Assembly (NCBI GenBank): GCA_964019135.1
Contig: OZ025249.1
Span: forward strand, 930,001 to 994,000
Direction: 5' to 3'
Source: Arenicola marina
Taxonomy: Eukaryota; Annelida; Polychaeta; Arenicolidae
DNA length: 64,000 nucleotides
A program made the translations under genes and the position numbers. The notes under the pieces were generated by a model. The model saw only the letters and a list, made by a program, of their open reading frames with translations, ran no database searches and was not told the origin of the DNA. The first letter of the stretch is position 1. Every line of letters starts with the position of its first letter. Positions 30,516-64,000 of the stretch are shown here, one piece after another.

Positions 30516-30592
30516 ATAACCCTAACGCTAACTCTAACCCTAACCCTAACCCTAACTCTAACCCTAACCTAATCCTAATCCTAACCGTAACC
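30516..30592. repeat. Degenerate interstitial telomere-like repeat (CCTAAC)n
   Basis: About 12 tandem six-base units of CCCTAA type with substitutions (CGCTAA, CTCTAA, TCCTAA, CCGTAA), just upstream of the polypyrimidine tract of the next collagen exon. It is consistent with the animal telomere motif TTAGGG on the other strand. An array this short and degenerate inside a gene is interstitial, not a chromosome end. Confidence 0.85.
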
Positions 30593-30680: not shown

Positions 30681-33600
30681 GTAAGATTGCACTGTACCCA
30701 GGTGACATTAGTATTACCTTGGTGCGATTGTATCGTACCCGGATGACATTAGTATTACCTTGGTGCGATTGTACTGTGCCCAGGTGACATTAGTATTACC
30801 TTGGTGCGATTGTATCGTACCCGGATGACATTAGTATTACCTTGGTGCGATTGTATTGTGCCCAGGTGACATTAGTATTACCTTGGTGTGATTGTACTGT
30901 GCCCAGGTGACATTAGTATTACCTTGGTGTGATTGTACTGTGCCCAGGTGACATTAGTATTACCTTGGTGCGATTGTATCGTACCCGGATGACATTAGTA
31001 TTACCTTGGTGCGATTGTATTGTGCCCAGGTGACATTAGTATTACCTTGGTGTGATTGTACTGTGCCCAGGTGACATAAGTATTACCTTGGGGCGATTGT
31101 ATGGTGCCCGGATGACATTAGTATTACCTTGGTGTGATTGTACTGTGCCCAGGTGACATAAGTATTACCTTGGGGCGATTGTATGGTGCCCGGATGACAT
31201 TAGTATTACCTTGGTGTGATTGTATTGTGTCCAGGTGACATTAGTATTATCTTGGTGTGATTGTATTGTGCCCAAGTGACATTAGTATTACCTTGGTGCG
31301 ATTGTATCGTACCTGGGTGACATTAGTATTACCTTGGTGTGATTGTATCGTACACAGATGACATAAGTATTACCTTGGTGTGATTGTATCGTACCCGGAT
31401 GACATTAGTATTACCTTGGTGTGATTGTATTGTACACAGATGACATTAGTATTATCTTGGTATGATTGTATTGTGCCCAGGTGACATTAGTATTACCTTG
31501 GTGCGATTGTATTGTGCCCAGGTGACAATAGTATTACCTTGGTGTGATTGTATTGTACACAGATGACATAAGTATTACCTTGGTGTGATTGTATCGTACC
31601 CGGATGACATTAGTATTACCTTGGTGTGATTGTATCGTACACAGATGACATAAGTATTACCTTGGTGTGATTGTATCGTACCCGGATGACATTAGTATTA
31701 CCTTGGTGTGATTGTATTGTACACAGATGACATTAGTATTATCTTGGTATGATTGTATTGTGCCCAGGTGACATTAGTATTACCTTGGTGCGATTGTATT
31801 GTGCCCAGGTGACAATAGTATTACCTTGGTGTGATTGTATTGTACACAGATGACATAAGTATTACCTTGGTGTGATTGTATCGTACCCGGATGACATTAG
31901 TATTACCTTGGTGTGATTGTATCGTACACAGATGACATAAGTATTACCTTGGTGTGATTGTATTGTACACAGATGACATTAGTATTACCTTGCTGCGATT
32001 GTATCGTACCCGGATGACATTAGTATTATCTTGGTGTGATTGTATTGTACACAGATGGCATTAGTATTACTTTGGTGCGTTTGTATCGTACCCGGGTGAC
32101 ATTAGTATTACCTTTGGTGTGATTGTGTTGCACACAGATGACATTAGTATTACCTTGGTGTGATTGTATTGTGCCCAGGTGACAATAGTATTACCTTGGT
32201 GTGATTGTATTGTGCCCAGGTGACATTAGTATTACATTGGTGTGATTGTATTGTGCCTAGGTGACATTAGTATTACCTTGGTGTGATTATATTGTGCCCA
32301 GGTGACATTAGTATTACCTTGGTGCGATTGTATTGTGCCCAGGTGACATTAGTATTACCTTGGTGTGATTGTATTGTGCCCAGGTGACATTAGTATTACC
32401 TTGGTGTGATTGTATTGTGCCCAGGTGACATTAGTATTACCTTGGTGTGATTGTATTGTGCCCAGGTGACATTAGTATTACCTTGCTGTGATTGTATTGT
32501 GCCGAGGTGACATTAGTATTGCCTTGGTGTGATTGTATCGTACCCGGATGACATTAGTATTACCTTGGTGCGATTGTATTGTGGCGAGGTGACATTAGTA
32601 TTTCATTGGTGTGATTGTATCGTACACAGATGGCATAAGTATTACCTTGCTGCGATTGTATCGTACCCGGATGACATTAGTATTACCTTGGTGTGATTGT
32701 ATTGTACACAGATGACATAAGTATTACCTTGGTGTGATTGTATTGTACACAGATGGCATTAGTATAACCCGGTTGTGATTGTATCGTACACAGATGACAT
32801 AAGTATTACCTTGCTGCGATTGTATCGTACCCGGATGACATTAGTATTACCTTGATGTGATTGTATTGTACACAGATGACATAAGTTACCTTGGTGTGAT
32901 TGTATTGTACACAGATGATGCAAGTATTACCTTGGTGCGATTGTATCGTACCCGGATGACATAAGTATTACCTTGGTGTGATTGTATTGTACACAGATGA
33001 CATAAGTTACCTTGGTGTGATTGTATTGTACACAGATGATGCAAGTATTACCTTGGTGCGATTGTATCGTACCCGGATGACATTAGTATTACCTTGGTGC
33101 GATTGTATTCTGGCCAGGTGACATTAGTATTTCATTGGTGTGATATGTGTCGTACACAGATGACATAAGTATTACCTTGCTGCGATTGTATCGTACCCGG
33201 ATGACATTAGTATTACCTTGGTGTGATTGTATTGTACACAGATGACATAAGTATTACCTTGGTGTGATTGTGTTGTACACAGATGACATTAGTATTACCT
33301 TGGTGTGATTGTATCGTACACAGATGACATAAGTATTACCTTGCTGCGATTGTATCGTACCCGGATGACATTAGTATTACCTTGGTGTGATTGTATTGTA
33401 CACAGATGACATAAGTATTACCTTGGTGTGATTGTATTGTACACAGATGACATTAGTGTTACCTTGGTGTCATTGCATTGTGCCCAGGTGACATAAGTAT
33501 TACCTTGGTGTGATTGTACTGTGCCCAGGTGACATTAGTATTACCTTGGTGTGATTGTATCGTACACAGATGACATAAGTATTACCTTGGTGCGATTGTA

Positions 33601-36600
33601 TTGTGCCCAGGTGACATTAGTATTACCTTGGTGTGATTGTACTGTGCCCAGGTGACATTAGTATTACCTTGGTGCGATTGTATCGTACCCGGATGACATT
33701 AGTATTACCTTGGTGTGATTGTATCGTACACAGATGACATAAGTATTACCTTGGTGTGATTGTATCGTACACAGATGACATAAGTATTACCTTGGTGTGA
33801 TTGTATTGTACACAGATGACATAAGTATTACCTTGCTGCGATTGTATCGTACCCGGATGACATTAGTATTAGCTTGGTGCGATTGTATTGTGCCCAGGTG
33901 ACATTAGTATTACCTTGGTGTGATTGTACTGTGCCCAGGTGACATTAGTATTACCTTGGTGCGATTGTATCGTACCCGGATGACATTAGTATTACCTTGG
34001 TGCGATTGTATTGTGGCCAGGTGACATTAGTATTTCCTTGGTGTGATTGTGTCGTACACAGATGACATAAGTATTACCTTGCTGCGATTGTATCGTACCC
34101 GGATGACATTAGTATTACCTTGGTGTGATTGTATTGTACACAGATGACATAAGTATTACCTTGGTGTGATTGTATTGTACACAGATGACATTAGTATTAC
34201 CTTGGTGTGATTGTATCGTACACAGATGACATAAGTATTACCTTGCTGCGATTGTATCGTACCCGGATGACATTAGTATTACCTTGGTGTGATTGTATTG
34301 TACACAGATGACATAAGTATTACCTTGGTGTGATTGTATTGTACACAGATGACATTAGTATTACCTTGGTGTGATTGTATTGTGCCCAGGTGACATAAGT
34401 ATTACCTTGGTGTGATTGTACTGTGCCCAGGTGACATTAGTATTACCTTGGTGTGATTGTATCGTACACAGATGACATAAGTATTACCTTGGTGCGATTG
34501 TATTGTGCCCAGGTGACATTAGTATTACCTTGGTGTGATTGTACTGTGCCCAGGTGACATTAGTATTACCTTGGTGCGATTGTATCGTACCCGGATGACA
34601 TTAGTATTACCTTGGTGTGATTGTATCGTACACAGATGACATAAGTATTACCTTGGTGTGATTGTATCGTACACAGATGACATAAGTATTACCTTGGTGT
34701 GATTGTATTGTACACAGATGACATAAGTATTACCTTGCTGCGATTGTATCGTACCCGGATGACATTAGTATTAGCTTGGTGCGATTGTATTGTGCCCAGG
34801 TGACATTAGTATTACCTTGGTGTGATTGTACTGTGCCCAGGTGACATTAGTATTACCTTGGTGCGATTGTATCGTACCCGGATGACATTAGTATTACCTT
34901 GGTGTGATTGTATCGTACACAGATGACATAAGTATTACCTTGATGTGATTGTATCGTACACAGATGACATAAGTATTACCTTGGTGTGATTGTATTGTAC
35001 ACAGATGACATAAGTATTACCTTGCTGCGATTGTATCGTACCCGGATGACATTAGTATTAGCTTGGTGCGATTGTATTGTGCCCAGGTGACATTAGTATT
35101 ACCTTGGTGCGATTGTATCGTACACCGATGACATTATTATTACCTTGGTGCGATTGCACTGTGCCCAGGTGACATAAGTATTGCCTTTGGTGCGATTGCA
35201 CTGTGCCCAGGTGACATTAGTATTACCTTGGTGCGATTGTATTGTGCCCAGGTGACATTAGTATTGCCTTGGTGCGATTGCACTGTGCCCAGGTGACATA
35301 AGTATTGCCTTTGGTGCGATTGCACTGTGCCCAGGTGGCATTAGTATTACCTTGGTGCGATTGTATTGTGCCCAGATGACATTATTATTACCTTGGTGCG
35401 ATTGCACTGTGCCCAGGTGACAATAGTACTACCTTGGTGTGATTGTATTGTACACAGATGACATTAGTATTATCTTGGTGTGATTGTATTGTGCCCAGGT
35501 GACATTAGTATTATCTTGGTGTGATTGTATTGTGCCCAAGTGACATTAGTATTACCTTGGTGTTATTGTGTTGTGCCCGGATGACATTAGTATTACCTTG
35601 GTGTGATTGTATTGTACACAGATGACATAAGTATTACCTTGGTGCCATTGTATCGTACCCGGATGACATTAATATTACCTTGGTGCGATTGTATTGTGCC
35701 CAGGTGACATTAGTATTACCTTGGTGTGATTGTATTGTACACAGATGACATTGGTATTATCTTGGTGTGATTGTATTGTGCCCAGGTGACATTAGTATTG
35801 CATTGGTGCGATTGTATTGTGCCCAGGTGACATTAGTATTACCTTGGTGTGATTGTATTTTGCCCAGGTGACATTAGTATTACCTTGGTGTTATTGTATC
35901 GTACACAGATGACATAAGTATTACCTTGGTGCGATTGTATCGTACCCGGATGACATTAGTATTACCTTGGTGCGATTGTATTGTGGCCAGGTGACATTAG
36001 TATTTCATTGGTGTGATTGTATCGTACACAGATTTCATAAGTATTACCTTGCTGCGATTGTATCGTACCCGGATGACATTAGTATTACCTTGGTGTGATT
36101 GTATTGTACACAGATGACATAAGTATTACCTTGGTGTGATTGTATTGTACACAGATGACATTAGTATTACCTTGCTGCGATTGTATCGTACCCGGATGAC
36201 ATAAGTATTACCTTGGTGTGATTGTATTGTACACAGATGACATAAGTTACCTTGGTGTGATTGTATTGTACACAGATGATATAAGTATTACCTTGGTGCG
36301 ATTGTATCGTACCCGGATGACATTAGTATTACCTTGGTGCGATTGTATTGTGGCCAGGTGACATTAGTATTTCATTGGTGTGATTGTGTCGTACACAGAT
36401 GACATAAGTATTACCTTGCTGCGATTGTATCGTACCCGGATGACATTAGCATTACCTTGGTGTGATTGTATTGTACACAGATGACATAAGTATTACCTTG
36501 GTGTGATTGTATTGTACACAGATGACATTAGTATTACCTTGGTGTGATTGTATCGTACCCGGATGACATTAGTATTACCTTGGTGTGATTGTATTGTACA

Positions 36601-39600
36601 CAGATGACATAAGTATTACCTTGGTGTGATTGTATTGTACACAGATGACATTAGTATTACCTTGGTGTGATTGCATTGTGCCCAGGTGACATAAGTATTA
36701 CCTTGGTGTGATTGTACTGTGCCCAGGTGACATTAGTATTACCTTGGTGTGATTGTATCGTACACAGATGACATAAGTATTACCTTGGTGCGATTGTATT
36801 GTGCCCAGGTGACATTAGTATTACCTTGGTGTGATTGTACTGTGCCCAGGTGACATTAGTATTACCTTGGTGCGATTGTATTGTACCCGGATGACATTAG
36901 TATTACCTTGGTGTGATTGTATCGTACACAGATGACATAAGTATTACCTTGGTGTGATTGTATCGTACACAGATGACATAAGTATTACCTTGGTGTGATT
37001 GTATTGTACACAGATGACATAAGTATTACCTTGCTGCGATTGTATCGTACCCGGATGACATTAGTATTAGCTTGGTGCGATTGTATTGTGCCCAGGTGAC
37101 ATTAGTATTACCTTGGTGTGATTGTACTGTGCCCAGGTGACATTAGTATTACCTTGGTGCGATTGTATCGTACCCGGATGACATTAGTATTACCTTGGTG
37201 TGATTGTATCGTACACAGATGACATAAGTATTACCTTGATGTGATTGTATCGTACACAGATGACATAAGTATTACCTTGGTGTGATTGTATTGTACACAG
37301 ATGACATAAGTATTACCTTGCTGCGATTGTATCGTACCCGGATGACATTAGTATTAGCTTGGTGCGATTGTATTGTGCCCAGGTGACATTAGTATTACCT
37401 TGGTGCGATTGTATCGTACACCGATGACATTATTATTACCTTGGTGCGATTGCACTGTGCCCAGGTGACATAAGTATTGCCTTTGGTGCGATTGCACTGT
37501 GCCCAGGTGACATTAGTATTACCTTGGTGCGATTGTATTGTGCCCAGGTGACATTAGTATTGCCTTGGTGCGATTGCACTGTGCCCAGGTGACATAAGTA
37601 TTGCCTTTGGTGCGATTGCACTGTGCCCAGGTGGCATTAGTATTACCTTGGTGCGATTGTATTGTGCCCAGATGACATTATTATTACCTTGGTGCGATTG
37701 CACTGTGCCCAGGTGACAATAGTACTACCTTGGTGTGATTGTATTGTACACAGATGACATTAGTATTATCTTGGTGTGATTGTATTGTGCCCAGGTGACA
37801 TTAGTATTATCTTGGTGTGATTGTATTGTGCCCAAGTGACATTAGTATTACCTTGGTGTTATTGTGTTGTGCCCGGATGACATTAGTATTACCTTGGTGT
37901 GATTGTATTGTACACAGATGACATAAGTATTACCTTGGTGCCATTGTATCGTACCCGGATGACATTAATATTACCTTGGTGCGATTGTATTGTGCCCAGG
38001 TGACATTAGTATTACCTTGGTGTGATTGTATTGTACACAGATGACATTGGTATTATCTTGGTGTTATTGTATCGTACACAGATGACATAAGTATTACCTT
38101 GGTGCGATTGTATCGTACCCGGATGACATTAGTATTACCTTGGTGCGATTGTATTGTGGCCAGGTGACATTAGTATTTCATTGGTGTGATTGTATCGTAC
38201 ACAGATTTCATAAGTATTACCTTGCTGCGATTGTATCGTACCCGGATGACATTAGTATTACCTTGGTGTGATTGTATTGTACACAGATGACATAAGTATT
38301 ACCTTGGTGTGATTGTATTGTACACAGATGACATTAGTATTACCTTGCTGCGATTGTATCGTACCCGGATGACATAAGTATTACCTTGGTGTGATTGTAT
38401 TGTACACAGATGACATAAGTTACCTTGGTGTGATTGTATTGTACACAGATGATATAAGTATTACCTTGGTGCGATTGTATCGTACCCGGATGACATTAGT
38501 ATTACCTTGGTGCGATTGTATTGTGGCCAGGTGACATTAGTATTTCATTGGTGTGATTGTGTCGTACACAGATGACATAAGTATTACCTTGCTGCGATTG
38601 TATCGTACCCGGATGACATTAGCATTACCTTGGTGTGATTGTATTGTACACAGATGACATAAGTATTACCTTGGTGTGATTGTATTGTACACAGATGACA
38701 TTAGTATTACCTTGGTGTGATTGTATCGTACACAGATGTCATAAGTATTACCTTGCTGCGATTGTATCGTACCCGGATGACATTAGTATTACCTTGGTGT
38801 GATTGTATTGTACACAGATGACATAAGTATTACATTGGTGTGATTGTATTGTACACAGATGACATTAGTATTACCTTGGTGTGATTGTATTGTGCCCAGG
38901 TGACATAAGTATTACCTTGGTGTGATTGTACTGTGCCCAGGTGACAGTAGTGTTACCTTGGTGTGATTGTATTGTACACAGATGACATTATTATTACCTT
39001 GGTGTGATTGTATCGTACACAGATGACATAAGTATTACCTTGGTGTGATTGTATTGTACACAGATGACATAAGTATTACCTTGCTGCGATTGTATCGTAC
39101 CCGGATGACATTAGTATTACCTTGGTGTTATTGTATCGTACACAGATGACATAAGTATTACCTTGGTGCGATTGTATCGTACCCGGATGACATTAGTATT
39201 ACCTTGGTGCGATTGTATTGTGGCCAGGTGACATTAGTATTTCATTGGTGTGATTGTATCGTACACAGATTTCATAAGTATTACCTTGCTGCGATTGTAT
39301 CGTACCCGGATGACATTAGTATTACCTTGGTGTGATTGTATTGTACACAGATGACATAAGTATTACCTTGGTGTGATTGTATTGTACACAGATGACATAA
39401 GTTACCTTGGTGTGATTGTATTGTACACAGATGATATAAGTATTACCTTGGTGCGATTGTATCGTACCCGGATGACATTAGTATTACCTTGGTACGGTTG
39501 TATTGTGGCCAGGTGACATTAGTATTACCTTGGTGCGATTGCACTGTGCCCAGGTGACAATAGTACTACCTTGGTGTGATTGTATTGTACACAGATGACA

Positions 39601-42510
39601 TTAGTATTATCTTGGTGTGATTGTATTGTGCCCAGGTGACATTAGTATTATCTTGGTGTTATTGTGTTGTGCCCGGATGACATTAGTATTACCTTGGTGT
39701 GATTGTATTGTACACAGATGACATTAGTATTACTTTGGTGCGATTGTATCGTACCCGGATGACATTAATATTACCTTGGTATGATTGTATTGTACACAGA
39801 TGACATTAGTATTACCTTGGTATGATTGCATTTTGCCCCGGTGACAATAGTATTACCTTGATGTGATTGTGTTGTGCCCAGGTGACATTAGCGTTATCTT
39901 GGTGTGATTGTATTGTACCCAGGTGACATTAGTATTACCTTGGCGCGATTGTATTGTGCCCAGGTGACATTCGTATTAGCTCGGTGCGATTGTATTGTGC
40001 TCAAGTGACATTAGTATTACCTTGGTGTGATTGTATTGTGCCCAGGTGACATTAGTATTACCTTGGTGTGATTGTATTGTGCCCAGGTGACATTAGTATT
40101 AGCTTAGTGTGATTGTATTTTACCCAGGTGACATCAGTATTACCTTGCTGTGATTGTATTGTGCCGAGGTGACATTAGTATTACCTTGGTGTGATTGTAT
40201 TGTGCCGAGGTGACATTAGTATTACCTTGGTGTGATTGTATTGTGCCCAGGTGACATTAGTATTACCTTGGTGCGATTGTATTGTGCCCAGGTGACATTA
40301 GTATTACCTTGGTGTGATTATATTGTGCCCAGGTGACATTAGTATTACCTTGGTGTGATTGTATTTTGCCCAGGTGACATTAGTATTACCTTGGTGTGAT
40401 TATATTGTGCCCAGGTGACATTAGTATTACCTTGGTGTGATTGTATTTTGCCCAGGTGACATTAGTATTACCTTGGTGTGATTATATTGTGCCCAGGTGA
40501 CATTAGTATTACCTTGGTGTGATTGTATTTTGCCCAGGTGACATTAGTATTACCTTGGTGTGATTATATTGTGCCCAGGTGACATTAGTATTACCTTGGT
40601 GTGATTGTATTTTGCCCAGGTGACATTAGTATTACCTTGGTGTGATTATATTGTGCCCAGGTGACATTAGTATTACCTTAGTGTGTTTGTATTTTGCCCA
40701 GGTGACATTAGTATTACCTTGGTGTGATTGTATTGTGCCGAGGTGACATTAGTATTACCTTGGTGTGATTGTATTGTGCCCAGGTGACATTAGTATTACC
40801 TTGGTGTGATTGTATTTTGCCCAGGTGACATTAGTATTACCTTGGTGTGATTGTATTGTGCCGAGGTGACATTAGTATTACCTTGGTGTGATTGTATTGT
40901 GCCGAGGTGACATTAGTATTGCCTTGGTGTGATTGTATTGTGCCCAGGTGACATCAGTATTACCTTAGTGTGTTTGTATTGTGCCGAGGTGACATTAGTA
41001 TTACCTTGGTGTGATTGTACTGTGCCGAGGTGACATTAGTATTACCTTGGTGTGATTATATTGTGCCGAGGTGACATTAGTATTACCTTGGTGCGATTGT
41101 ATTTTGCCCAGGTGACATTAGTATTACCTTGGTGTGATTATATTGTGCCCAGGTGACATTAGTATTACCTTAGTGTGTTTGTATTGTGGCCAGGTGACAT
41201 CAGTATTACCTTAGTGTGTTTGTATGGTGCCCAGGTGACATTAGTATTACCTTGGTGTGATTATATTGTGCCCAGGTGACATTAGTATTACCTTAGTGTG
41301 TTTGTATGGTGCCCAGGTGACATTAGTATTACCTTAGTGTGTTTGTATTGTGCCCAGGTGACATTAGTATTACCTTAGTGTGTTTGTATGGTGCCCAGGT
41401 GACATTAGTGTTACCTTAGTGTGTTTGTATTGTGCCCAGGTGACATTAGTATTACCTTAGTGTGTTTGTATTGTGCCCAGGTGACATTAGTATTACCTTG
41501 GTGTGATTGTATTGTGCCCAGGTGACATTAGTATTACCTTGGTGTGATTATATTGTGCCCAGGTGACATTAGTATTACCTTAGTGTGTTTGTATTGTGCC
41601 CAGGTGACATTAGTATTACCTTGGTGTGATTGTATTTTGCCCAGGTGACATTAGTATTACCTTGGTGTGATTATATTGTGCCCAGGTGACATTAGTATTA
41701 CCTTGGTGTGATTGTATTTTGCCCAGGTGACATTAGTATTACCTTGGTGTGATTATATTGTGCCCAGGTGACATTAGTATTACCTTGGTGTGATTGTATT
41801 TTGCCCAGGTGACATTAGTATTACCTTGGTGTGATTGTATTGTGCCGAGGTGACATTAGTATTACCTTGGTGTGATTGTATTGTGCCGAGGTGACATTAG
41901 TATTACCTTGGTGTGATTGTATTGTGCCCAGGTGACATCAGTATTACCTTAGTGTGTTTGTATTGTGCCGAGGTGACATTAGTATTACCTTGGTGTGATT
42001 GTATTGTGCCGAGGTGACATTAGTATTACCTTGGTGTGATTGTATTGTGCCGAGGTGACATTAGTATTACCTTGGTGTGATTGTATTGTGCCGAGGTGAC
42101 ATTAGTATTACCTTGGTGTGATTGTATTGTGCCGAGGTGACATTAGTATTACCTTGGTGTGATTGTATTGTGCCGAGGTGACATTAGTATTACCTTGGTG
42201 TGATTGTATTGTGCCGAGGTGACATTAGTATTACCTTAGTGTGATTGTATTGTGCCGAGGTGACATTAGTATTACCTTGGTGTGATTGTATTGTGCCGAG
42301 GTGACATTAGTATTACCTTGGTGTGATTATATTGTGCCGAGGTGACATTAGTATTACCTTGGTGTGATTGTATTGTGCCGAGGTGACATTAGTATTACCT
42401 TGGTGTGATTGTATTGTGCCCAGGTGACATCAGTATTACCTTAGTGTGTTTGTATGGTGCCCAGGTGACATTAGTATTACCTTGGTGTGTTTGTATTGTG
42501 CCCGGGTGAC
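30681..42510. repeat. 41-bp intronic minisatellite, about 289 copies
   Basis: Starts at the donor of the preceding exon and runs almost 12 kb. Units contain GACATTAGTATTACCTTGG, a GTGTGATTGTATT-like part, and one of three main endings: GTGCCCAGG, GTACCCGGA or GTACACAGA. The CCCAGGTGACATT portion resembles the real junction CCCAG/GTAAGATT, so the unit seems derived from the exon-intron border. Variant blocks are repeated at 287 bp (7 units, near 31454 and 31741), about 902 bp (22 units) and 2296 bp (56 units, 35140 and 37436). From about 41960 to 42420 the copies are almost uniform with the ending GTGCCGAGG. About 126 unique bases follow before the next exon. Confidence 0.96.
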
Positions 42511-42636: not shown

Positions 42637-42744
42637 GGTGAAGCCGGGCCCCCTGGAATCCCTGGCGAGTTCGGCTTCCCGGGAATGCCGGGATTGCCAG
42701 GGACGGACGGACGTCCGGGACAACCTGGAACCCCAGGTGTCAGT
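42637..42744 (+). CDS. Collagen exon, 12 Gly-X-Y triplets
   Basis: Acceptor TTCCGTTGACAG, donor AGT/GTGAGT, 108 bases, exactly 36 codons, phase 0. Twelve uninterrupted triplets begin [12 protein letters not shown] and end GQP GTP GVS. The 108-base size is twice the 54-base unit typical of fibrillar collagen exons. The codons are GC-rich, unlike the AT-rich sequence just upstream. The last 15 bases and the donor reappear several times in the intron that follows, so the true donor must be distinguished from close copies at 42835 and beyond. It forms part of the triple-helical rod of a secreted matrix protein. Confidence 0.95.
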
Positions 42745-43275
42745 GTGAGTCCGGGGTCAAGAGGTCACTGGGGTAGCAGCTGGGGTATGAGTGTGCGTCT
42801 GGGGTCAAGAGGTCGCTGAGGTTATAGAATCCCGGGTGTCAGTGTGAGTCCGGGGTCAAGAGGTCACTAGGATTGCAGCTAGGGTATGAGGGTGAGTCTG
42901 GGGTCAAGATGTCACTGGGTTTATAGAATCCCGGGTGTCAGTGTGAGTCTGGGGTCAAGAGGCCACTGGGGTTATAGAATCCCGGGTGTCAGTGTGAATC
43001 CGGGGTCAAGAGGTCACTTGGATTGCAGCTAGGGTATGAGGGTGAGTCTGAGGTCAAGAGGTCACTGGGGTTATAGAAACCCGGGTGTCAGTGTGAGTCT
43101 GGGGTCAAGAGGCCACTGGGGTTATAGAATCCTGGGTGTCAGTGTGAGTCCGGGGTCAAGAGGTCACTAGGATTGCAGCTAGGGTATGAGGGTGAGTCCG
43201 GGGTCAAGAGGCCACTGGGGTTATAGAATCCCGGGTGTCAGTGTGAGTCTGGGGTCAAGAGGTCACTGGGGTAGC
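42745..43275. repeat. 99/51-bp donor-copy minisatellite
   Basis: The segment GGTGTCAGTGTGAGTC, that is the exon end plus donor, recurs at about 42835, 42934, 42985, 43084, 43135 and 43234. Spacings are 99, 99, 51, 99, 51 and 99 bases. The 51-base form lacks an internal 48 bases containing GATTGCAGCTAGGGTATGAG. The repeats start directly at the real 5' splice site and copy around 15 exon bases with one or two changes (CCAGG to CCGGG). Confidence 0.93.
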
Positions 43276-43289
43276 AGGGTATGAGTAAG

Positions 43290-47666: not shown

Positions 47667-47720
47667 GGTGAGCCCGGGCCTGCTGGCCTTCCCGGTCCCG
47701 CCGGGGGTGCAGGCGAACCG
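47667..47720 (+). CDS. Collagen exon, 6 Gly-X-Y triplets
   Basis: Acceptor GTTATTTTCAG, donor CCG/GTGAGT, 54 bases, phase 0. The reading is GEP GPA GLP GPA GGA GEP, six perfect triplets, in the classical 54-base collagen exon size. Codon and base composition match the other exons (GC-rich, Pro in X and Y). It continues directly from GVS of the previous exon and into GVP of the next. Donor-like copies of its 5' splice site start 39 bases further on. Confidence 0.95.
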
Positions 47721-48196
47721 GTGAGTGCCTCTGTGTACCCCTGTTACCATTGACTACTGGTGAGTGTCTCTGTGTACCACTGTTACCATTGACCACTGGT
47801 GAGTGTCTCTGTGTACCACTGTTACCAATGACTACTGGTGAGTGTCTCTGTGTACCACTGTTACCATTGACTACTGGTAAGTGTCTCTGTGTACCACTGT
47901 TACCAATGACTACTGGTGAGTGTCTCTGTGTACCACTGTTACCATTGACTACTGGTGAGTGTCTCTGTGTACCACTGTTACCATTGACTACTGGTGAGTG
48001 TCCCTGTGTACCACTGTTGCCATTGACTACTGGTGAGTGTCTCTGTGTACCACTGTTACCATTGACTACTAGTGAGTGTCTCCGTGTACCACTGTTACCA
48101 TTGACTACTAGTGAGTGTGTCTGTGTACCACTGTTACCATTGACTACTAGTGAGTGTGTCTGTGTACCACTGTTACCATTGACTACTGGTGAGTGT
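47721..48196. repeat. 39-bp donor-copy minisatellite, about 12 copies
   Basis: Units begin with the donor itself, GTGAGTGTCTCTGTGTACCA, and end TTACCATTGACTACTG. The real junction CCG/GTGAGTGCC is the first copy, and every later unit repeats G/GTGAGTG, or a GTAAGTG variant near 47878. Period 39 is a multiple of 3, which gives a spurious 149-codon frame on the + strand. Confidence 0.94.
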
Positions 48197-52519: not shown

Positions 52520-52558
52520 ACCGGTCAAGGCGGACTGTCTGGCGAGCCGGGACCACCG
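52520..52558 (+). CDS. Collagen exon that seeded the 46-bp array
   Basis: Acceptor TTATTGTTACAG, donor CCG/GTAAGT, 39 bases, phase 0. The reading is T, then GQG GLS GEP GPP. Together with the preceding 51-base exon it makes a 90-base pair of exons split at an interruption. Its last 27 bases (GLS GEP GPP) and the donor are repeated about 119 times downstream. The true exon is recognised because only this copy has ACCGGTCAAGGC upstream and a plain acceptor. Confidence 0.88.
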
Positions 52559-55500
52559 GTAAGTTACCTCACTGACTGGACTGTCTGGCGAGCCGGGACC
52601 ACTGGTAAGTTACCTCACTGACTGGACTGTCTGGCGAACCGGAACCACCGGTAAGTTACCTCACTGACTGGACTGTCTGGCGGGCCGTGACCACCGGTAA
52701 GTTACCTCACTGACTGGACTGTCTGGCGGGCCGGGACCACCGGTAAGTTACCTCACTGACTGGACTGTCTGGCGAGCCGGAACCACCGGTAAGTTACCTC
52801 ACTGACCTGACTGTCTGGCGAGCCGGGACCACTGGTAAGTTACCTCACTGACCTGACTGTCTGGCGAGCCGGGACCACCGGTAAGTTACATCAGTGACTG
52901 GACTGTCTGGCGAGCCAGGACCACTGGTAAGTTACCTAACTGACTGGACTGTCTGGCTAGCCGGGACCACTGGTAAGTTACCTCACTGACTGGAATGTCT
53001 GGCGAGCCGGGACCCCCGGTAAGTTACCTCACTGACTGGACTGTCTGGCGAGCCGGGACCACTGGTAAGTTACCTAACTGACTGGACTGTCTGGCTAGCC
53101 GGGACCACTGGTAAGTTACCTCACTGACTGGACTGTCTGGCGAGCCGGGACCACCGGTAAGTTACCTCACTGACTGGACTGTCTGGCTAACCGGGACCAC
53201 CGGTAAGTTACCTCACTGACTGGACTGTTTGGCTAGCCGGGACCACCGGTAAGTTACCTCAGTGACTGGACTGTCTGGCGAGCCGGCACCACCGGTAAGT
53301 TACCTCACTGACTGGCCTGTCTGGCGAGCCTGGACCACTGGTAAGTTACCTAACTGACTGGACTGTCTGGCTAGCCGGGACCACTGGTAAGTTACCTCAC
53401 TGACTGGACTGTCTGGCGAGCCGGGACCACCGGTAAGTTACCTCACTGACTGGACTGTTTGGCGAGCCGGGACCACCGGTAAGTTACCTAACTGACTGGA
53501 CTGTCTGGCGAGCCGGGACCACTGGTAAGTTACCTAACTGACTGGACTGTCTGGCGAGCCGGGACCACCGGTAAGTTACCTCACTGACTGGACTGTCTGG
53601 CGAGCCGGGACCACCGGTAAGTTACCTCACTGACTGGACTGTCTGGCTAACCGGGACCTCTGGTAAGTTACCTCACTGACTAGACTGTTTGGCTAGCCGG
53701 GACCACTGGTAAGTTACCTCAGTGACTGGACTGTCTGGCGAGCCGGGACCACCGGTAAGTTACCTCACTGACCTGACTGTCTGGCGAACCGGGACCACCG
53801 GTAAGTTACCTCACTGACTGGACTGTCTGGCGAGCCAGGACCACTGGTAAGTTACCTAACTGACTGGACTGTCTGGCTAGCCGGGACCACTGGTAAGTTA
53901 CCTCACTGACTGGACTGTCTGGCGAGCCGGGACCACCGGTAAGTTACCTCACTGACTGGACTGTCTGGCTAACCGGGACCACTGTTAAGTTACCTCACTG
54001 ACTTGACTGTTTGGCTAGCCGGGACCACTGGTAAGTTACCTCAGTGACTGGACTGTCTGGCGAGCCGGCACCACCGGTAAGTTACCTCAGTGACTGGACT
54101 GTCTGGCGAGCCGGGACCACTGGTAAGTTACCTCACTGACTGGACTGTCTGGCGAGTCGGGACCACCGGTAAGTTACCTCACTGACTGGACTGTTTGGCG
54201 AGCCGGGACCACCGGTAAGTTACCTAACTGACTGGACTGTCTGGCGAGCCGGGACCACTGGTAGGTTACCTCAGTGACTGGACTGTCTGGCGAGCCGGCA
54301 CCACCGGTAAGTTACCTCACTGACTGGACTGTTTGGCGAGCCGGGACCACTGGTAAGTTACCTAACTGACTGGACTGTCTGGCGAGCCGGGACCACTGGT
54401 AAGTTGCCTCACTGACTGGACTGTCTGGCGAGTCGGGACCACCGGTAAGTTACCTCACTGACTGGACTGTTTGGCGAGCCGGGACCACCGGTAAGTTACC
54501 TAACTGACTGGACTGTCTGGCGAGCCGGGACCACTGGTAAGTTACCTAACTGACTGGACTGTCTGGCGAGCCGGGACCACTGGTAAGTTACCTCACTGAC
54601 TGGACTGTTTGGCTAGCCGGGACCACCGGTAAGTTACCTCAGTGACTGGACTGTCTGGCGAGCCGGTGCAACACCGGTAAGTTACCTAACTGACTGGACT
54701 GTCTGGCTAACCGGGACCACTGGTAAGTTACCTCACTGACTGGACTGTTTGGCTAGCCGGGACCACCGGTAAGTTACCTCAGTGACTGGACTGTCTGGCG
54801 AGCCGGGACCACCGGTAAGTTACCTCGCTGACTGGACTGTCTGGCGAGCCAGGACCACTGGTAAGTTACCTAACTGACTGGACTGTCTGGCTAGCCGGGA
54901 CCACTGGTAAGTTACCTCACTGACTGGACTGTCTGGCGAGCCGGGACCACCGGTAAGTTACCTCACTGACTGGACTGTCTGGCTAACCGGGACCACTGGT
55001 AAGTTAACTCACTGACTGGACTGTCTGGCGAGCCGGGACCACCGGTAAGTTACATCAGTGACTGGACTGTCTGGCGAGCCAGGACCACTGGTAAGTTACC
55101 TAACTGACTGGACTGTCTGGCTAGCCGGGACCACTGGTAAGTTACCTCACTGACTGGAATGTCTGGCGAGCCGGGACCACCGGTAAGTTACCTCACTGAC
55201 TGGACTGTCTGGCGAGCCGGGACCACTGGTAAGTTACCTAACTGACTGGACTGTCTGGCTAGCCGGGACCACTGGTAAGTTACCTCACTGACTGGACTGT
55301 CTGGCGAGCCGGGACCACCGGTAAGTTACCTCACTGACTGGACTGTCTGGCTAACCGGGACCACCGGTAAGTTACCTCACTGACTGGACTGTTTGGCTAG
55401 CCGGGACCACCGGTAAGTTACCTCAGTGACTGGACTGTCTGGCGAGCCGGCACCACCGGTAAGTTACCTCACTGACTGGACTGTCTGGCGAGCCTGGACC

Positions 55501-58045
55501 ACTGGTAAGTTACCTAACTGACTGGACTGTCTGGCTAGCCGGGACCACTGGTAAGTTACCTCACTGACTGGACTGTCTGGCGAGCCGGGACCACCGGTAA
55601 GTTACCTCACTGACTGGACTGTTTGGCGAGCCGGGACCACCGGTAAGTTACCTAACTGACTGGACTGTCTGGCGAGCCGGGACCACCTGTAAGTTACCTA
55701 ACTGACTGGACTGTCTGGCGAGCCGGGACCACCGGTAAGTTACCTCACTGACTGGACTGTCTGGCGAGCCGGGACCACCGGTAAGTTACCTCACTGACTG
55801 GACTGTCTGGCTAACCGGGACCTCTGGTAAGTTACCTCACTGACTGGACTGTTTGGCTAGCCGGGACCACTGGTAAGTTACCTCAGTGACTGGACTGTCT
55901 GGCGAGCCGGGACCACCGGTAAGTTACCTCACTGACCTGACTGTCTGGCGAACCGGGACCACCGGTAAGTTACCTCACTGACTGGACTGTCTGGCGAGCC
56001 AGGACCACTGGTAAGTTACCTAACTGACTGGACTGTCTGGCTAGCCGGGACCACTGGTAAGTTACCTCACTGACTGGACTGTCTGGCGAGCCGGGACCAC
56101 CGGTAAGTTACCTCACTGACTGGACTGTCTGGCTAACCGGGACCACTGTTAAGTTACCTCACTGACTTGACTGTTTGGCTAGCCGGGACCACTGGTAAGT
56201 TACCTCAGTGACTGGACTGTCTGGCGAGCCGGCACCACCGGTAAGTTACCTCAGTGACTGGACTGTCTGGCGAGCCGGGACCACTGGTAAGTTACCTCAC
56301 TGACTGGACTGTCTGGCGAGTCGGGACCACCGGTAAGTTACCTCACTGACTGGACTGTTTGGCGAGCCGGGACCACCGGTAAGTTACCTAACTGACTGGA
56401 CTGTCTGGCGAGCCGGGACCACTGGTAAGTTACCTCACTGACTGGACTGTCGGGCGGGCCGGGACCACCGGTAAGTTACCTCACTGACTGGACTGTCTGG
56501 CGAGCCGGGACCACTGTTAAGTTACCTCAGTGACTGGACTGTCTGGCTAGCCGGGACCACCGGTAAGTTACCTCAGTGACTGGACTGTCTGGCTAGCCGG
56601 GACCACCGGTAAGTTACCTCACTGACTGGACTGTCTGGCTAGCCGGGACCACTGTTAAGTTACCTCAGTGACTGGACTGTCTGGCGAGCCGGGACCACCG
56701 GTAAGTTACCTCAGTGACTGGACTGTCTGGCGAGCCGGGACCACTGGTAAGTTACCTCAGTGACTGGACTGTCTGGCGAGCCGGGCCCACCGGTAAGTTA
56801 CCTCACTGACTGGACTGTCGGGCGAGCCGGGACCACTGGTAAGTTACCTCAGTGACTGGACTGTCTGGCGAGCCGGGCCCGCCGGTAAGTTACCTCACTG
56901 ACTGGACTGTCTGGCGAGCCGGGACCACTGGTAAGTTACCTCACTGACTGGACTGTCTGGCGAGCCGGGACCACCGGTAAGTTACCTCACTGACTGGCCT
57001 CTCTCGCTAGCCGGGACCACCGGTAAGTTACCTCACTGACTGGACTGTCTGGCTAGCCAGGACCACTGGTAAGTTACCTCACTGACTGAACTGTCTGGCG
57101 AGCCGGGACCACCTGTAAGTTACCTCACTGACTGGACTGTCTGGCTAACCGGGACCACTGGTAAGTTACCTCACTGACTGGACTGTCTGGCTAGCCGGGA
57201 CCACTGGTAAGTTACCTCACTGACTGAACTGTCTGGCGAGCCGGGACCACCTGTAAGTTACCTCACTGACTGGACTGTCTGGCTAGCCGGGACCACTGGT
57301 AAATTACCTCACTGACTGGACTCTCTGGCGGGCCGGGACCACCGGTAAGTTACCTCACTGACTGGACTGTCGGGCGGGCCGGGACCACCGGTAAGTTACC
57401 TCACTGACTGGACTGTCTGGCTAGCCGGGACCACTGTTAAGTTACCTCAGTGACTGGACTGTCTGGCGAGCCGGGACCACCGGTAAGTTACCTCAGTGAC
57501 TGGACTGTCTGGCTAGCCAGGACCACTGGTAAGTTACCTCACTGACTGAACTGTCTGGCGAGCCGGGACCACCTGTAAGTTACCTCACTGACTGGACTGT
57601 CTGGCGAGCCAGGTCCACTGGTAAGTTACCTCACTGACTGGACTGTCTGGCTAACCGGGACCACTGGTAAGTTACCTCACTGACTGGACTGTCTGGCTAG
57701 CCGGGACCACTGGTAAGTTACCTCACTGACTGAACTGTCTGGCGAGCCGGGACCACCTGTAAGTTACCTCACTGACTGGACTGTCTGGCTAGCCGGGACC
57801 ACTGGTAAATTACCTCACTGACTGGACTCTCTGGCGGGCCGGGACCACCGGTAAGTTACCTCACTGACTGGACTGTCGGGCGGGCCGGGACCACCGGTAA
57901 GTTACTTCACTTACTGGACTGTCTGGCGAGCCAGGGCCACTGGTAAGTTACCTCACTGACTGGACTGTCTGGCTAGCCGGGACCACTGGTAAGTTACCTC
58001 ACTGACTGGACTGTCTGGCTAGCCGGGACCACTGGTAAGTTACCT
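52559..58045. repeat. 46-bp exon-donor minisatellite, about 119 copies
   Basis: The unit is GTAAGTTACCTCACTGACTG, then a copy of the preceding exon's 3' end (GGACTGTCTGGCGAGCCGGG, then ACCACCG or ACCACTG), then GTAAGT again. Each unit therefore has a near-perfect 5' splice site in its natural exon context. Frequent variants are GGCTAGCC (a TAG in the exon frame), GGCTAACC, CCTCAGTGACTGG and CCTAACTGACTGG. A block is repeated at about 2164 bp (near 52991 and 55155), that is 47 units plus a 2-base insertion near 54666. Copy number is estimated from length divided by period. Confidence 0.97.
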
Positions 58046-58371: not shown

Positions 58372-58416
58372 GGTCCCCCGGGGAAGGACGGCTCAAGGGG
58401 CAAGAGAGGGCCATCT
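58372..58416 (+). CDS. Collagen exon, 5 Gly-X-Y triplets, basic
   Basis: Acceptor GCCTTCTTTCACAG, donor TCT/GTAAGT, 45 bases, phase 0. The reading is GPP GKD GSR GKR GPS. The size of 45 is one of the standard collagen exon lengths. The K/R-rich triplets could bind acidic partners or heparin, which is an inference. The following exon begins V-R before GPP, so the join reads GPS VR GPP, a two-residue slip in the repeat. Confidence 0.94.
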
Positions 58417-59231: not shown

Positions 59232-59640
59232 GATAGAACCATCCCAGGTAAACGATAGCCCTAATCCACCCGTTTAGAGTTAGGTTATCCATCTAGGTTT
59301 AAGGTTAGACGTTCGCCCTAGCCCCTCCGTCTAGGCTTAGGGTTAGACGTTCCTCCTAATCCCTACGTCTAGGTTTAGGGTTAGACGTTCATCCTAATCC
59401 CTCCATCTAGGTTTAAGGTTAGACGTTCGTCCTAACCCCTCCGTCTAAGCTTAGGGTTAGACGTTCATCCTGATCCCTCCGGCTAGGTTTAGGCCTAGAC
59501 GTTTATCCTAATCCCTCCGTCTAGGTTTAGGCCTAGACGTTTATCCTAATCCCTCCGTCTAGGTTTAGGCCTAGACGTTTATCCTAATCCCTCCGTCTAG
59601 GTTTAGGCCTAGACGTTTATCTTAATCCTTCCGTGTGGGT
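59232..59640. repeat. 38-bp minisatellite with palindromic end copies
   Basis: About 11 units built on GTTAGACGTTCATCCTAATC and CCTCCGTCTAGGTTTAGG. Early copies read TTTAGGGTTAGACG. The last four read TTTAGGCCTAGACG, which with the preceding CGTCTAGG makes an 8-bp stem and 6-base loop (59518-59539, 59556-59577 and 59594-59615 perfect, 59480-59501 with one mismatch). Confidence 0.92.
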
Positions 59641-59740
59641 TTATAGTTAAACCCCCACACCAATCCCCCCAATTGGTTAAGGAAAAATTGGAAAGTTAAG
59701 GTTAGGGAATGTGCACGCAATAACCTTCTCATCACCGCAG

Positions 59741-63976: not shown

Positions 63977-64000
63977 AGTCGGCCGGGACCGCCAGGATCC
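63977..64000 (+). CDS. Collagen exon, first 24 bases (runs off the window)
   Basis: After the acceptor TATCTTTTGACAG the frame continues from the previous exon as S-R-P-G-P-P-G-S. With the preceding G-P it reads GPS RP GPP GS, a two-residue slip similar to the one at 59741. The exon end is outside the window. The next AG, two bases on, would break the frame, so the first AG is used. Confidence 0.8.

Follow-up and report, generated by a model that had tools for sequence, protein, structure and literature searches.

Minisatellites that incorporate an exon-intron boundary, known as mirages, are an already recognized but seldom described kind of repeat. Excerpts of the amphioxus report describe minisatellite-like tandem duplications of an exon-intron boundary, with many units retaining splice signals, in Adh3 and in the globin genes BflGb6 and BflGb9; both 5′ and 3′ boundaries are affected, units are 10-160 bp in length, BflGb6 haplotypes have 6 and 3 units, and reverse transcription PCR (RT-PCR) suggested that regular splicing is undisturbed (PMC3087553). 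The human CBS gene is reported to have a 31-bp variable number tandem repeat (VNTR), designated c.1444_1467+7(16_21), in which, by this notation, each unit consists of the final 24 nt of an exon and the initial 7 nt of the intron (PMC2630376). Each copy can therefore carry a 5′ splice site (donor). The CBS VNTR is polymorphic, with 16-21 copies at a single site. A minisatellite in human IFI6 (6-16, G1P3) similarly supplies donors, and the use of two downstream repeat units is reported (PMC4526556). Here we describe a 46-bp minisatellite of 120 units, with the same anatomy as the CBS VNTR, that begins inside a 39-nt exon of a collagen gene of the annelid Arenicola marina. Tandem units span the exon end and intron start, and the splice signal is kept (GT in 115 of the 120 units), as in a mirage. 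What is new is the scale, the recurrence within one gene and the restriction to donors in that gene: as compared with amphioxus, the arrays of the Arenicola gene are on the donor side only, have up to ~158 copies and number eight in a single gene. Minisatellites are likewise documented in an annelid intron, intron 1 of an earthworm metallothionein gene, with mean monomers of 178-181 bp and no junction origin stated in the excerpts of that report (PMC12783039). Among the papers listed in searches of the open-licence PMC literature, none was recognizable by title or abstract as a report of junction minisatellites in annelids.

The window, the 64,000-nt stretch analyzed here (C2:930001-994000; contig OZ025249.1), is from an 867 Mb genome assembly of 762 contigs and contains, on the + strand, part of the collagen gene. 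The mitochondrial gene order, ND3-Ser-ND2-COX1-Asn-COX2-Asp-ATP8-Tyr-Gly (COX1 identified by Pfam, tRNAs by ARAGORN and the other genes by eye), agrees with that of annelids. The collagen gene was identified by Pfam Collagen matches, and each of the 23 exons for which both ends could be placed is a multiple of 3 in length, so that skipping one exon would keep the frame. The 39-nt exon (TGQGGLSGEPGPP; 52520-52558, + strand) is bordered by TTACAG/ACCGGT and ACCACCG/GTAAGT and ends on a codon boundary. When it is joined to the next four exons, the first of which is GPPGKDGSRGKRGPS (58372-58416, + strand), the frame remains open with Gly-X-Y triplets and short interruptions, and the joined translation of the collagen exons that include it matches Pfam Collagen (E 6.6e-28). 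Tandem Repeats Finder (TRF) reports a single array at 52532-58045 (+ strand) with a period of 46, 119.8 copies and 92% matches. The original prediction, of ~119 tandem donor copies following a 39-base exon, was thus borne out, except that the array had been placed from 52559 and in fact starts at 52532, 27 nt inside the exon. The unit consists of the last 27 nt of the exon followed by the first 19 nt of the intron, hence the junction itself has been amplified. Unit 1 is identical to the TRF consensus, including its exon and intron parts, and the repeated donors are therefore copies of the true junction rather than a chance motif of an unrelated repeat. The array is also not a product of chance, as 46 of the 47 occurrences of the 15-mer GGACCACCGGTAAGT in the genome are inside it.

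Segmentation gave 118 units of 46 nt, one of 48 nt and a final, partial unit of 38 nt, with 54 distinct types among the 118. GTAAGT is present in 112 of the 120 units, and GT at the donor register in 115, namely the true donor and 114 decoys; in the remaining five units the sequence is CTGTTAAGT and the GT is lost. The first donor, CCG/GTAAGT (52559-52564, + strand), is presumably the one used, and the last decoy is CTG/GTAAGT (58035-58040, + strand). As CCG or CTG precedes GT in the usual unit, this unit lacks the AG/GT of recursive splicing. Similarity between units peaks at a lag of 47 units, with a mean identity of 0.949 as compared with 0.918 for neighbors, and the 506 nt of units 27-37 (53728-54233, + strand) are identical, letter by letter, to units 74-84 (55892-56397, + strand), consistent with duplication of a 47-unit block inside the array. 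This duplication suggests, from the one haplotype seen, that the array may be unstable. The intron extends 326 nt beyond the last unit, and the last donor lies 337 nt, and the first 5,813 nt, upstream of the next exon. An intron of ~340 nt was therefore likely the state before expansion, from which the present 5.8 kb intron would have grown.

Donor strength was evaluated using a matrix built from 39 donors, 24 from this gene (true array donors included) and 15 from another collagen gene. Half of the decoys in the 46-bp array (57 of 114) equal or exceed the score of the true donor. Strength therefore cannot explain donor choice, and this agrees with the earlier description of the decoys as near-ideal sites in the exon context of the true one. 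Use of a decoy would be costly in almost every case. With 113 of the 114, translation would first meet an in-frame stop at codon 34 from the exon start, a TGA (CAC TGA, in the second unit); the remaining decoy would add one unit, shift the frame and reach a stop at codon 95. An early stop had been anticipated, as the in-frame TAG of GGCTAGCC; the early stop stands but its type does not. The accompanying suggestion, that first-donor choice or decay of mis-spliced products must operate, is a fair one given that 113 decoys would bring an early stop.

The 46-bp array is not an isolated oddity of one intron, as had been assumed. The array itself was correctly seen, but seven further donors of the same gene that an array encloses or abuts, together with the amplified junction and the precedents noted above, were missed. 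In a 264 kb region surrounding the window, TRF arrays account for 83% of the bases, with 103 non-redundant arrays of which 53 are longer than 500 bp. Manual inspection of Gly-X-Y frames and splice signals yielded a list of 26 exons of the collagen gene, from which N- and C-terminal exons may be missing, with 24 donors and 25 3′ splice sites (acceptors). With arrays defined by a period of at least 12 and at least 4.5 copies, eight of the 24 donors, and no acceptor of the 25, are covered by an array (Fisher p = 0.0016; sign test p = 0.0078). These donors, given as are all positions beyond the window in window coordinates, are at 42744, 47720, 52558, 64030, 77955, 85313, 108676 and 131765. Judged by array start, five of the eight arrays include 17-31 exon bases, one includes 7, one includes 1 and one, at donor 77955, includes none, its start coinciding with the first base of the intron. 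A more stringent test, for near copies of a 24-mer centered on the junction, identified five of 24 donors and none of 25 acceptors. When only the 20 intron bases were used, at least 3 near copies within 12 kb were found for 10 of the 24 donors and for one of the 25 acceptors, at 108279. A short array of 4.2 copies (108112-108276) ends immediately before the AG of this acceptor and, although below the 4.5-copy threshold, counts against a clean zero for acceptors. In a control with windows at exon centers, 2 of 23 were positive, both in exons that are reached deeply by their arrays.

The same direction is seen in array positions within introns. An array of at least 200 bp is present in 18 of the 24 introns and absent from six. 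In 11 of these 18 an array begins no more than 20 nt from the donor, and in one an array end is that close to the acceptor. The median gap is 9 nt from donor to array and 148 nt from array to acceptor.

Over the eight arrays there are 438 decoys, or 437 in a companion count that has one fewer at 108676, with 10-121 per intron. Pooled, 404 of the 438 would result in a stop in the extension or in the next exon, and 4 are frameshifted with no stop by the end of the next exon. For the exon at 131664-131765, read in the Gly-X-Y frame, all 121 decoys of its array would give an early stop. Relative strength differs between arrays. The true site at donor 85313 is GTCAGT, and 26 of the 37 decoys there, mostly GTAAGT, score at least equal to it; for donors 47720 and 77955 every decoy scores below the true donor.

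Within the window, the exon at 42637-42744 (+ strand) is followed by a junction array (42728-43277, + strand) that starts 17 nt inside the exon, and the exon at 47667-47720 (+ strand) by an array with a 39-nt unit (47720-48196, + strand) that starts on the last exon base and has GT in all 11 of the decoys found. The exon at 63977-64030 (+ strand) crosses the end of the window, with 63977-64000 inside, and its junction array is at 64000-65145. A 41-bp array (30685-42510, + strand) begins at intron position +5 of donor 30680; this case is borderline and is not among the eight. Beyond the window, the 25-bp array at 131745-135658 (L029-L030; consensus CCCAGGTAAG), at a collagen exon end, has ~158 copies and a donor density above that of the 46-bp array, and the array at 85307-87406 is the one at donor 85313. 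A 40-bp array with unit CTGTAGGTAAACAC occupies positions 4-30153 of the window and extends to -15467 (L024-L025), a total of ~45.6 kb and ~1,141 copies. Its 5′ edge comes after GGAGGTAAGT, and it may be another donor-side array. Past the last collagen exon found there is a 61-bp array (143915-147192; consensus GATAAGGTGCGTG) that is possibly a junction array of a neighboring gene. At 30517-30592 and 59288-59643, ~0.96-0.99 Mb into the contig, there are telomere-like TAACCC repeats and a 38-bp array in which TTTAGGGTTAG occurs.

The explanation that we consider probable is that the 46-bp array is a mirage-type junction minisatellite that was amplified in a largely neutral manner and is tolerated because the donor nearest to the acceptor of the exon is, presumably, the one used. 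The 27 nt of exon end and 19 nt of intron start have been amplified in tandem to 120 units, in part through block duplication, and growth would have occurred by ordinary minisatellite slippage or unequal exchange, seeded at the junction. The exon would be defined across itself, with its acceptor pairing with the nearest donor, which is 39 nt away and would be transcribed first, and this donor is therefore well placed to win. Later donors would be used rarely, and decay would clear the resulting transcripts, almost all of which would carry an early stop. In the parts of the study excerpted, the upstream donor was chosen exclusively in five minigenes that had two identical CAG/guaagu donors under exon definition (PMC9225289).

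Several observations weigh against this explanation. The transcriptome-wide preference for the upstream of two near-equal donors is reported to be only ~60% (PMC9225289), several of the decoys would also yield exons of <300 nt, and two downstream repeat units of IFI6 are reported to function as donors (PMC4526556). Thirty of the 438 decoys would generate an in-frame insert with no stop, 28 of them at donor 77955. The donor-acceptor asymmetry comes from one gene, and the paired comparison of gaps within introns is not significant (Wilcoxon p = 0.12). Over 10 kb of a fibrillar collagen gene (L038), with 15 exon ends and an array content of 8%, no donor is covered by an array, and the pattern is therefore not common to all collagen genes. 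Under exon definition, the upstream-acceptor preference is reported to be reduced in favor of the site closest across the exon (PMC9225289), and acceptor arrays are therefore predicted to be tolerated too. Amphioxus BflGb6 is described as having an acceptor-side mirage (PMC3087553), and human CBS as having a tolerated duplication of the intron 7/exon 8 junction. The donor-only pattern is thus harder to explain than the array itself, and may reflect transcription order together with the requirement that branch point and pyrimidine tract stay free upstream of the acceptor; alternatively, it may reflect a bias in mutation.

If the bias is purely mutational, donor junctions would seed minisatellites more readily, for example through G-rich exon ends or co-transcriptional R-loops, and the pattern would be uninformative with respect to splicing tolerance. 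We regard this as possible but rather unlikely. The region is, as documented by its array content, prone to minisatellites; acceptor-side duplications are, from the excerpted amphioxus and human CBS reports, tolerated in other animals; and there is no clear sign of selection on the decoys in either direction, with the donor hexamer neither purged nor clearly favored (by hand count, 3 variant letters in its 6 sites as compared with 35 in the other 40). However, none of the 25 acceptors is crossed by an array although the arrays in the 18 introns approach one acceptor to within 20 nt and ten to within 200 nt. Mutational bias and splicing tolerance are not mutually exclusive.

A function for the decoys, either as a U1-binding field that shields the long intron from premature polyadenylation or as a regulated source of non-productive splicing, could make use of the 437 decoy GT sites of the companion count, but appears improbable. 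The donor hexamer does not clearly vary less than other parts of the unit, the array is off the donor in 10 of the 18 array-bearing introns, and six introns lack an array of at least 200 bp. More doubtful still is that RNA folding masks the decoys and leaves the first donor open. The unit contains GGTAAGTTACC, the two halves of which are complementary between copies, and in five of the eight arrays the predicted openness of the first donor exceeds the mean for the six donors that follow; in two arrays it exceeds the value of each of the six. In the 46-bp array, however, the predicted value for the first donor is 0.23 as compared with 0.19-0.32 for the next six, two other arrays similarly confer no advantage, and fold stability relative to shuffled sequences ranges from z -2.9 to +4.5, so that the predictions favor masking weakly and unevenly. 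An assembly artefact, in the array or in its length, is scarcely credible for a continuous sequence with no N, 54 unit types and internal block structure, accompanied by seven more arrays with different units at other donors.

Elsewhere in the genome, arrays with a donor motif were fetched from 11 places (L039-L044 and L047-L051; of the two intervening loci, L045 contains an isolated collagen exon and L046 the distal part of the array in L039). Seven of the 11 include the 5′ edge of the array, which was not reached in L042, L044, L047 and L049. By eye, the array begins at the end of a coding exon in four of the seven arrays with a readable 5′ edge and in none of four control arrays of the motif GTAAGGT (L052-L055), a difference that, with such small samples, is suggestive only. 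The clearest case is L039, in which the array is at an exon of ALDH1L (Pfam Aldedh, E 7.1e-8; PDB match, E 1e-24) that ends ...WCDKIQ/gtaagt, with the WCDKIQ codons inside the repeat unit. In L041 and L043, there is an open frame after an acceptor with the array at the exon end; neither has a Pfam match and L041 also has no PDB match. L050 matches Lustrin_cystein at E 2.1e-5, but with 25.2 bits this is below the cut-off of 27, and it is not clear that the unit contains exon bases. By eye, there is no exon at the 5′ flank of the L051 array, and the L040 flank is ambiguous. L048 (C3:42277201-42277800) corresponds to the opposite strand of an exon of an Rh ammonium transporter (PDB, E 4.5e-11; no Pfam match). 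The L048 array is near the acceptor side of this exon and, by eye, ends ~14 nt before the AG.

Motifs were also counted genome-wide as three in a row, ~15-45 nt from start to start, with both strands summed and very common words skipped; as counts are per match, large arrays dominate. Triples of GGTAAGT number 21,834 as compared with 10,176 for the reversed motif, with corresponding values of 43,392 and 27,141 for GGTGAGT, 1,590 and 1,208 for TTTCAGG, and 13,481 and 8,934 for GTAAGGT, which has the same dinucleotides as GGTAAGT. In this count AAGGTAAGT shows no excess (204 and 230). Among the places listed first, grouped by eye, contig C1 has at least 6 GGTAAGT arrays within its initial 1.1 Mb and at least 6 GTAAGGT arrays within its initial 8.4 Mb. 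Given these mixed results, the motif counts were dropped as proof of a genome-wide excess of donor arrays.

A broader reading is that introns in many genes would have grown repeatedly by donor-junction amplification. This would be possible because first-donor choice, exon-centric and favoring the site transcribed first, is nearly error-free against a hundred equal rivals, and would be largely confined to donors because acceptors lack such protection. This reading was at first considered possible and is now put forward only tentatively, as unlikely, because the exon-definition data, amphioxus and CBS all speak against a general intolerance of acceptor copies.

The experiments that have addressed donor competition, as excerpted, used pairs of sites (PMC9225289). 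Eight introns of one gene, with 10-121 decoys each and 437 in all, many of them scoring as high as the true donor, are far beyond such two-site tests, and these arrays constitute a natural test of how one donor is picked among many equals, with a bearing on donor fidelity and on the exon-centric proximity rule. If true across genes, the donor-only pattern would reveal whether donors or acceptors are the sites at which duplication is tolerated in this lineage, and the genome would offer many examples of intron growth by junction amplification. If the genome-wide reading is true, the A. marina genome would be a natural saturation experiment on donor choice.

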